In this document: positions 19,451 through 21,801 of the stretch, one piece after another
How the letters are laid out: each line of letters starts with the position of its first letter
How positions within the stretch are numbered: the stretch's first letter is position 1
Origin: Leisingera sp. M658
Lineage (GTDB): Bacteria; Pseudomonadota; Alphaproteobacteria; Rhodobacterales; Rhodobacteraceae
Direction: 5' to 3'
Length of the DNA: 64,000 nucleotides
Assembly (NCBI RefSeq): GCF_025144145.1
Contig: NZ_CP083546.1
Span: 1,194,501-1,258,500 of the forward strand
Translations under genes and position numbers: made by a program
The notes under the pieces: generated by a model
Databases searched by the model: none
Told to the model about the DNA's origin: nothing
What the model saw: the letters and a program-made list of their open reading frames with translations, nothing else

Positions 19451-19952
19451 AAATGTTCAGCGTCTAGCATTTCTTGGGAAGATCAAGTCACTTGGGATAC
19501 GGGCCAACGGTGCGGTCACTCAGTACAAAATTTTGTAAGCAGGTATGCCAGTTCAAATTCCGTTCCAAGTTCGAAACTCGCCTTCCAAGCCTAAGTTTTG
19601 TCTAAAATATTGATTTTTCTCATGGAATGCGGTTCTAAGAAGCGCCCGTGAGTTTTTGGGACTAGTTCCAAGTTCGGGAATGCGATTTCAGGTGGTTGCC
19701 CGACGCCGGCACTGCTTTAAAGCCCTGTTTTAAGGGTCTTTCAGGGCCGTTGGAGAGTTTGCAACAGGAAGTGTCCCAAAATCTGCTGAGCGCGCTGTAG
19801 GGGCCATTTTTCCGGGTATTGAAGGACAAACGCCCCAAGCCACTTTCCAGGTTTAGACCTTCCAGAATGCCCTTTTTTATATGGCTCCATCCGGGTTCTT
19901 CCGGCTTTGTCCGGCCTCTTCCGGTTACTGCAATATCAAGTGTCTCCTAACA
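19451..19952. other. Non-coding AT-richer stretch with single inverted iteron-like units
   Basis: About 500 bases without a gene. It holds two solitary iteron-like units in the opposite orientation to the main block: GCAACAGGAAGTGTCCCAAA at about 19761, and a degenerate TGCAATATCAAGTGTCTCC at about 19930, directly before the second repeat block. Nothing else recognised. Confidence 0.5.
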
Positions 19953-20224
19953 GCGGGACACTTCGCGTTGCAGTGCGGGACACTTCCCGTTGCAGCAACT
20001 CATTTTCGCGATTTCCCTGATTTTTAAGCCTGAAACGGGGGTTTAGCCAGTCCGGATCTGCGCCGGTTCCGTGATTTGACGCCGGAATTTTGGGACACTT
20101 CGCGTTGCAGTACGGGACACTTTCCGTTGCAATACCCGGCAATCCGCCGCCCAAAACGTAAAAAAACGTCGGGCGGCAGAGGGTTTTAAAGGGTGTTTAA
20201 AGGGCTGTTGTAGGGGCTGGCGGG
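19953..20224 (+). repeat. Iteron-like repeat block, copy 2
   Basis: Same length and orientation as the block at 7041-7312. Units of 22 bp lie at 19953, 19975, 20090 and 20112, with an AT-rich TGTTTAAAGGG tract at about 20182-20215. Most positions match copy 1, with scattered substitutions. The two copies begin 12,912 bases apart and bound the accessory island. Confidence 0.75.
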
Positions 20225-20394: not shown

Positions 20395-20762
20395 GGCATT
20401 GTTGCAGAACTCTGACCGCTAAGGATTCACATCACGAATCCATGCGGTTAGACGGGTTAGATGAGCAAGCCCGCACCTGCCCGCTACCGCACGACGAATT
20501 GGTCCAGCTACAACGATGCGCTCAGGAAGCGCGGGTCGCTTCTGATCCGGTTGGACAAAGAGATGACCTGGCTCGCGCCGCATGAAGGGCGACCGGGGCG
20601 TCCACCAGTCTTCTCGAACTCGGCGATCCAGTTCTGCCTGTCGATCAAGGTTCTGTTCAAGTTGCCACTCCGGCAGACCGCCGGGATGGTCGCCAGCCTT
20701 TTGCACCTGGCGGGGTTGGACTGGCCCGTTCCCGATTTCTCTACACTGTGCCGCCGGCAGAG

Positions 20763-20805
20763 TGAGATGGGACCGTGGCCCCAGTGGGGCCGCGTAAGCC
20801 CATAG
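20763..20805 (+). repeat. Hairpin insertion 1 in IS5 transposase (type 2)
   Basis: 43 bases inserted after the CRRQ codons. Inner stem GGCCCC-AGT-GGGGCC is nested in an outer ATGGG/CCCAT pairing. The flanks differ from insertions 2-5, so this is a separate family of similar size. It shifts the frame by +1. Confidence 0.7.
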
Positions 20806-20860
20806 AACGCTGGCCGTCCAGATCCCGTATCGCCGCGCCGATGGTCCGCTGAACCTGCGT

Positions 20861-20901
20861 CCCCTCTCGGGACATTGCTATGCAATGCCCTGCCGGGCAA
20901 C
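20861..20901 (+). repeat. Hairpin insertion 2 in IS5 transposase (type 1)
   Basis: Starts CCCCTCTC, central stem CATTGC-TAT-GCAATG, ends TGCCGGGCA. Inserted immediately before the GACAGC codons (first catalytic Asp); frame kept. Confidence 0.75.
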
Positions 20902-20978
20902 GGACAGCACCGGGATCAAGTTCCTTGGCGATGGTGAGTGGCAGGCCCGCAAGCACGGCGTTCAGGGGCGACGCCAAT

Positions 20979-21017
20979 CGCTGCCCGGCAGTTGATTGCA
21001 GAGCAATCAATGAGAGG
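20979..21017 (-). repeat. Hairpin insertion 3 in IS5 transposase (type 1, inverted)
   Basis: Same element on the opposite strand: CTGCCCGGCAG, stem TTGATTGC-AGA-GCAATCAA, then GAGAGG. It replaces no codons net of 39 added bases, but introduces two in-frame TGA stops. Confidence 0.75.
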
Positions 21018-21070
21018 GGCGCAAGGTGCATCTTGCGATGGATGCTGCCACGTCTGACATCCGTGCTGTC

Positions 21071-21112
21071 CCTTGTCCGGCAGGCGATTTGCAAAGCAAA
21101 TCTGACGAGAGG
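21071..21112 (-). repeat. Hairpin insertion 4 in IS5 transposase (type 1, inverted)
   Basis: TGTCCGGCAG, stem GATTTGC-AAA-GCAAATC, then GACGAGAGG. 42 bases, frame kept. On the element's own strand it abuts GACAGC, as do insertions 2 and 5. Confidence 0.75.
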
Positions 21113-21136
21113 GAATTCACCCCCAGCCGCGACGGC

Positions 21137-21177
21137 CCCTCTCGTGGTTATGCTGCGCAAACCACTGCCGGGCAGTG
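21137..21177 (+). repeat. Hairpin insertion 5 in IS5 transposase (type 1)
   Basis: CCCTCTC, stem GTGGTT-(ATGCTGCGC)-AAACCAC, TGCCGGGCAG, abutting GGACAGC. 41 bases; it returns the reading frame to that of the N-terminal segment. Confidence 0.75.
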
Positions 21178-21801
21178 GACAGCCCGGTCCTGCCGGAACT
21201 GCGCGACCAGAGTCCGAAGGACGAAGAGATCGGCAGCGTGACTGCAGACGGGGCCTATGACACGCGCCGTTGCCACTCCGCCATCATCAAGCGTGGGCCG
21301 TCCCGATTATCCCTATCCGCAAGAATGGCCAGCCGTGGAAAGAAAACTGCCCGGCGGCACAGGTCAGAAACGAAACCTTGCGCGCCACCCGGCACTACGG
21401 CCGGGCCTTCTGGAAACGCTGGACAGGATACCACGCCCGGAGCCGGGTCGAGGCAAAGATGCGCTGCTTGAAGGCATTCGGCGAACGCATCGCCGCAAGA
21501 GACCCTGGTAGCCAAACCGCTGAAATCCACATCCGCATCGCCCTCATCAATCGCTTCAATGCACTCGGCACCGCCGAGATCGTCCGCGTCGCCTAAGTTC
21601 AGAGGGGAAAGGGGTAGTCAGGCCTCAAGAGGGAGTTTTGCAACAACGCCGATACTGCAACCCGAAGTGTCCCCTAACACTGCTGCACCTGTGCTGCAAA
21701 GGCAGCAGGCGGCGGGGCTGGGCTTCGTTGACCCGGTGGTAGCTGCGGGGCAGCGGAAAAGTCTATGGTTTTTGCCGCCCGCACAGGGCAAATGTGGTGC
21801 T

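Follow-up and report, generated by a model that had tools for sequence, protein, structure and literature searches.

The window analysed here, a stretch of 64,000 nucleotides from the genome of Leisingera sp. M658, contains an IS5-family insertion sequence (ISRhba5-like) whose transposase gene is interrupted by five short hairpins, four of them members of a family that we call A and one of a second family, B. The N-terminal part of the transposase matches the Pfam family DDE_Tnp_1_5 and the C-terminal part DDE_Tnp_1; Rfam has no match anywhere in this IS. The features are as follows.

20395..21650 (approximate), plus strand: IS5-family IS (ISRhba5-like) whose transposase gene is interrupted; present in the genome as seven near-identical copies
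20761..20803, plus strand: insert 1, family B hairpin of 43 nt; a gap in intact relatives, further copies elsewhere
20862..20902, plus strand: insert 2, family A, ends GGGCAA-CG; immediately precedes the GACAGC of the LLx-DSTG codons
20979..21018, minus strand: insert 3, family A, stem TTGATTGC/GCAATCAA, target ATTGG; a gap in intact relatives
21071..21113, minus strand: insert 4, family A, end TGCCGGACAA-GG, before GACAGC; a gap in intact relatives
21137..21177, plus strand: insert 5, family A, stem GTGGTT/AAACCAC, before GACAGC; a gap in intact relatives

Relatives of this IS on Martelella, Celeribacter and Sulfitobacter plasmids are annotated as whole IS5 transposase genes, and their length falls short of the window copy by about 200 bp. 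Alignment with these and other intact relatives places five gaps opposite the window copy, corresponding to inserts of net 43, 39, 39, 42 and 41 nt, and no intact relative was seen to carry these sequences as a native part of the gene. An earlier note, made from the letters of the window, had described five hairpins interrupting one transposase gene, and the alignment bears this out together with most of the detail: two family A inserts lie in plus and two in minus orientation, GACAGC adjoins three of these four, always on the same side, the suggested target preference stands, and three of the five inserts (net 39, 39 and 42 nt) preserve the reading frame. The shared ends were described correctly for CCCTCTC, which is present in all four, and less so for the opposite end, said to differ by one base at most: it reads TGCCGGGCAG in two inserts, TGCCGGGCAA in one and TGCCGGACAA in one, and one of these variants differs at two bases.

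A copy of the IS in Leisingera M527 has the same five inserts and a sixth, another copy in that genome has insert 3 only, and a diverged element occupies the insert-3 site in Pseudorhodobacter. Judged from these comparisons, the five inserts are stepwise acquisitions and not native to the IS. Several GGGACACTTCGCGTTGCAG-like copies were also noticed by eye at 19950-20140, to the left of the IS, with one inverted copy at about 21660 on its right; perhaps they are terminal repeats of another element that received the IS.

The seven copies of the IS in this genome are 98.9-100% identical and every one has the five inserts. Some also have a 1-base deletion in the gene and some a 7-base deletion, and the genome yielded no copy in which the frame is unbroken over the full length of the transposase. 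As near-identical copies have accumulated despite the broken gene and in a genome with no intact-frame copy, the IS was presumably moved in trans, taking the hairpins along.

Family A elements begin with CCCTCTC, continue with a self-complementary stem that varies between elements and frequently has a bulged base, and end with CTGCCGGGCAG-YG. The terminal YG belongs to the element: each of its two positions is kept in 55 of 56 site groups, which had been chosen regardless of it. Elements are about 34-45 nt long (most commonly 41 nt) and, among 143 distinct ones, the fixed ends lie 14-25 nt apart (most commonly 21 nt). The stems differ in sequence and are still self-complementary, just as the earlier note described. 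In the 39-nt class (59 distinct elements), more than one Watson-Crick type occurs at eight of the nine stem pairs, and 497 of 531 stem cells are paired, whereas 1000 column shuffles gave 371 on average and never more than 393; kinship among the sequences can inflate such a test, yet the stems differ in kind and length across the 143 distinct elements. By eye, many stems have a single base that bulges out after the third pair.

The minus strand is predicted to fold into an outer CCC/GGG helix, a 4x4 internal loop (GGCA/GAGA) and the stem. Predicted stability favours the minus strand in 28 of 39 cores and the plus strand in 10. In 38 of the 143 distinct elements, the first stem position has A opposite C on the plus strand, which is a G-T pair on the minus strand, while in the 39-nt class the wobbles counted across the stem pairs are divided evenly between the strands (11 vs 11). 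The strand argument in favour of the minus strand is therefore modest. Short members with the stem GGCGGC/GCCGCC were noticed at two loci (L065:2037-2072 and L088, about 815-850). The first of them (C7:16238) lies outside a gene, immediately downstream of one for a GDP-mannose dehydratase, for which it could serve as a terminator.

The reading of the inserts in the earlier note as in-gene palindromic elements stands: the hairpins recur in the genome and across the taxonomic family, with both filled and empty sites. The exact family A pattern matches 42 times in the Leisingera genome compared with no matches for a reversed-pattern control, and the right end alone matches 104 times compared with four, so chance is excluded. 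In the host's own taxonomic family, 98 of 394 genomes have the pattern and three have the control, although some of these 98 have no stem by eye and represent chance matches. A search at the class level gave matches in 17 of 385 genomes (control in six); four of the 17 belong to the same family, and among the other 13 just two (G586 and G508) look like hairpins by eye. Among named plasmids, 98 records were matched, mostly from Pseudosulfitobacter, Sulfitobacter, Phaeobacter and Leisingera. No convincing carriage by phages was found, the search yielding just two partial matches (E 0.06 and 0.8). Named genomes contributed at least 119 stretches, and nearly all of the 80 listed are by title from Rhodobacteraceae or roseobacter genera. 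The exceptions among the listed stretches are Vreelandella (L178, L202), Enemella (L250), a Hyphomicrobiales MAG and a Robiginitomaculum MAG. These could reflect transfer, in Vreelandella and Enemella together with an IS, or contamination.

Comparison of filled and empty sites has shown that family A inserts in both orientations and that target duplication is absent. The 252 elements collected fall into 155 site groups, 41 of them with more than one member and a few being double-counted by the pattern. The target was derived from the 56 site groups whose loci had been chosen without regard to the sequence after the element, leaving out loci picked by a pattern that demanded YGGA and a further set picked mostly by the right end. 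The base before the element is C in 43 of these groups, and the successive positions after it favour G (in 45 groups), A (36), T or C (33 and 15, respectively) and G (29). The preferred target is thus C^GAY, best C^GATG; C at -1 and GAY are preferences, not fixed, and the left junction can be placed with an ambiguity of about one base (one C). A separate count over 62 groups agrees with these figures, while a count over 123 groups that included loci found by the YGGA-demanding pattern gave higher values after the element and is not independent evidence. One form of the target site is TGATC^GACAGCACCGG.

The same positions in diverged homologues are occupied by quite different stems or are empty. 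At the IS5 site LLx^DSTG, unlike stems of the GGGACATTGC type, GTTGCTGCGAGCAGCAA and ATCGAAACTATGTTTCGA were found, and the sites MI^DATYLK and TA^DGAYD (motifs read by eye from the codons) behave in the same way. The aspartates at these three sites are presumably catalytic residues of DDE enzymes. A stem-less remnant, CCCTCTC-GGGCAGCG, was noticed at an LLx-DSTG site (L219, about 967-982), as if the hairpin had been deleted.

Could the hairpins be old relics that no longer move, were spread by copying of the host IS and acquired varied stems through mutation or exchange? Many family A copies are indeed plain duplicates of a host IS, all five inserts are common to the seven IS copies of the genome, and at some sites the same stem is retained although the flanks have diverged. 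We nevertheless regard this explanation as unlikely. One identical 39-mer occurs at four distinct sites of the Leisingera genome with unlike flanks, and a Leisingera copy of the IS is empty at the insert 5 site although its flanks are 100% and 94% alike. Moreover, in a 40-row tree built for the LLx^DSTG region from 21 filled and 19 empty copies, the filled or empty state changes at least 11 times, seven changes being forced by well-supported branches; this tree counts changes without separating gains from losses, and shuffled labels need only slightly more of them (mean 13.5-13.8). Repeated gain seems to be the simpler reading of unlike stems at one site, while exchange of stems after an old insertion could also produce them.

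Insert 1, which the earlier note had set apart as having other flanks and a similar design, represents the second family. Family B has an outer helix (ATGGG/CCCAT in insert 1), a loop and an inner helix (GGCCCC/GGGGCC), a design like that of family A in a sequence unlike it. Copies with altered, mostly still paired stems were found at L001 (1059) and L219 (866), by eye at the same IS5 position in L219 and perhaps in L001, and the insert 1 sequence occurs in another context at L164:713. The family B pattern was found in three of 198 genomes of the taxonomic family, including that of the window. A 38-nt hairpin-like insert with other ends, a third kind, was noticed in the same IS5 family on a Roseinatronobacter plasmid (L046:2368).

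Family A elements are located in or beside transposase genes of the IS5, IS3, IS66, IS110, IS21, IS91 and DUF772 types and phage integrases, and in IS630-like hosts recognised by a helix-turn-helix match only. The preference was assessed in the 80 listed of at least 119 named stretches, which gave 60 distinct sites, 59 adjacent ORFs and 57 control ORFs from the same contigs. For the adjacent ORF, the most coding-like piece no more than 60 bp from the element was taken, and for the control a middling one at least 1.8 kb away, so the two sets are imperfectly matched. Adjacent ORFs matched 22 Pfam families: 16 transposase families, four generic helix-turn-helix families, AAA_25 and PhoH, the last two with one member each. 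Generic helix-turn-helix families of this kind are common in transposases. The control ORFs matched 61 families, with two transposase families (Mu-transpos_C_2 with two members and DDE_Tnp_IS240 with one) among the best 25 of the 61. These tallies count families rather than loci or matching ORFs, and the first of the 59 adjacent ORFs has no match.

Single ORFs beside elements gave a transposase or recombinase match in 11 of 20 cases in a first set (six had no match and three had cellular domains), in 5 of 10 in a second (one rve match being below the curated cut-off, and one further ORF having a winged-helix match only), in none of 10 in a third, composed mostly of second-choice frames, and in 8 of 10 in a fourth. 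At L055, some 160 bp separate the integrase match from the element, and the integrase gene is perhaps not its host. Not all sites lie in transposase genes: besides the one downstream of the GDP-mannose dehydratase gene (L065), a number of sites in the Leisingera genome have no assigned host gene. Relative to Pfam-supported adjoining genes, 14 elements of the Leisingera genome are in the same and 11 in the opposite orientation, compared with seven and one in other genomes (hand count). Not every host gene need be dead, since a 426-aa frame of an IS91-type gene in another genome (L153) stays open through the element. The bias towards transposases has two readings: IS elements may be just a safe, travelling refuge, or the insertion machinery may favour sites that are common in transposase genes. 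Either is plausible on the sites annotated, which include one clear site outside a gene, and only IS-borne copies travel between genomes.

Overall, family A can be considered, with good though not full confidence, to be a non-autonomous mobile hairpin that prefers C^GAY, inserts without duplication, resides mainly in transposase genes and uses IS elements moved in trans as a vehicle. Interrupted IS copies mobilised in trans would carry it within and between genomes, and the bias towards transposases would be explained partly by this use of the vehicle. A bias this strong suggests that parasitism among mobile elements has a second layer. It is rather doubtful, though conceivable, that family A is a dedicated class of IS parasite, a 41-nt hairpin whose integration machinery recognises C^GAY where it recurs at conserved transposase codons, including the catalytic-aspartate codons of IS5-type enzymes, and that it disables transposases while riding them; if so, it would be a mobile element feeding on and restraining other mobile elements.

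As to how such a hairpin is inserted, we can offer only a tentative proposal, one possibility among several, in which an HUH-type enzyme acts in trans on single-stranded DNA. The strand 5'-(C)RTC^CRCTGCCCGGCAG-stem-GAGAGGG-3' would fold as ssDNA and might then be cut and pasted 3' of the RTC target; in the 56 site groups, an RTC on the minus strand precedes many insertions. The enzyme may come from visiting plasmids or be of another type. The linked RAYT/Y1 or reverse transcriptase partner envisaged in the earlier note was not found in the Leisingera genome. Y1 transposase has no match there (G000) nor in 10 of 15 carriers; the other five carriers have six matches, none of them near a hairpin in the nine loci fetched. 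Y2 was matched in seven of the 15 carriers, and RVT_1 has no match in the Leisingera genome nor in 11 of the 15. Y1, Y2 and RVT_1 were thus rejected as a constant resident partner, each being missing from most of the 15 carriers (10, 8 and 11, respectively). In the loci around nearly all of the 100 listed right-end matches (of 104), no longer, gene-bearing version was seen; by eye these loci show small elements or chance matches only.

Insertion by an RNA route, with a reverse transcriptase copying the hairpin from RNA into nicked target DNA, appears quite improbable: the minus strand does fold with an outer CCC/GGG helix and a purine-rich internal loop, but the distribution of RVT_1 and the short preferred target with fixed ends argue against it. 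We give hardly any credence to the hairpins being bypassed in translation or removed from RNA like introns so that transposase is still made, for although five-insert IS copies have multiplied, both orientations in one gene are hardly compatible with an RNA-level signal, and IS copies with 1- and 7-base deletions have spread too, which points to mobilisation in trans.

Among known systems, MITEs differ from family A, whose ends are not inverted repeats and whose filled and empty pairs have no target-site duplication. A blunt insertion 3' of (C)RTC on the better-folding strand, as proposed for family A, would resemble the logic of IS200/IS605 and REP elements. Derivation from IS200/IS605 in the manner of PATE-like elements is at odds with the lack of a Y1 match in the Leisingera genome, although the enzyme could come from outside. 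In REP/RAYT systems, as far as the accessible text describes them (PMC8266576, PMC2817692), a hairpin likewise folds next to a short target or tag that is conserved, but family A has no GTAG tag, its ends are CCCTCTC and CAGYG, its flanks are C^GAY, and no Y1 match accompanies it in its own genome. Fungal mitochondrial double-hairpin elements and GC clusters are likewise small, gene-less mobile hairpins with an uncertain mover in the part of the source available (PMC4478555); they belong to organelle DNA, have other sequences and are likened to family A by description only.

The earlier note had compared the inserts with the palindromic elements of Rickettsia. The likeness holds for the design, a mobile palindrome within genes, and fails for the reading frame, which inserts of 41 and 43 nt do not respect. 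According to the text available, the Rickettsia elements are about 150 bp long and in frame where they occur in genes, nearly half of the first-reported ones being inside protein-coding genes (PMC10969869); family A is about 41 nt, often breaks the frame and prefers transposase genes. The earlier note knew of no described family with these ends, and likewise no text describing them was found among the papers listed by searches of the openly accessible PMC literature or by a search for terms within PMC12306157.

On the text available, the closest described kind is that of the CGTC-tagged REPs of alphaproteobacteria, which include RPE-4 and RPE-6 of Rickettsia and dRS3 of Neisseria (PMC3733652); the main text of that article, in the portion available, does not name Rhodobacter, Ruegeria, Dinoroseobacter, Roseobacter or Paracoccus. 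Like them, family A comprises short palindromes with varied stems, and its target side reads (C)RTC on the minus strand. The CGTC REPs have no dedicated transposase known, and for family A no constant partner was found among Y1, Y2 and RVT_1 in 15 carriers. Unlike in them, going by the same text, the RTC of family A lies in the target, as empty sites show, and varies; the element itself has no CGTC end or CCA-like tail, is predicted to fold into an outer CCC/GGG helix followed by an internal loop of 4x4, and is hosted mainly by transposase genes. By what means palindromic repeats without a gene, RPEs and CGTC REPs among them, are moved is still an open question, put as such for CGTC REPs in the available text of PMC3733652. 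Family A offers an unusually clean case of it: its ends are exact, its target preference is marked, its sites occur filled as well as empty, and different stems are found at one and the same site. Its carriers are named, partly culturable roseobacters, which makes a hunt for the mover practical.
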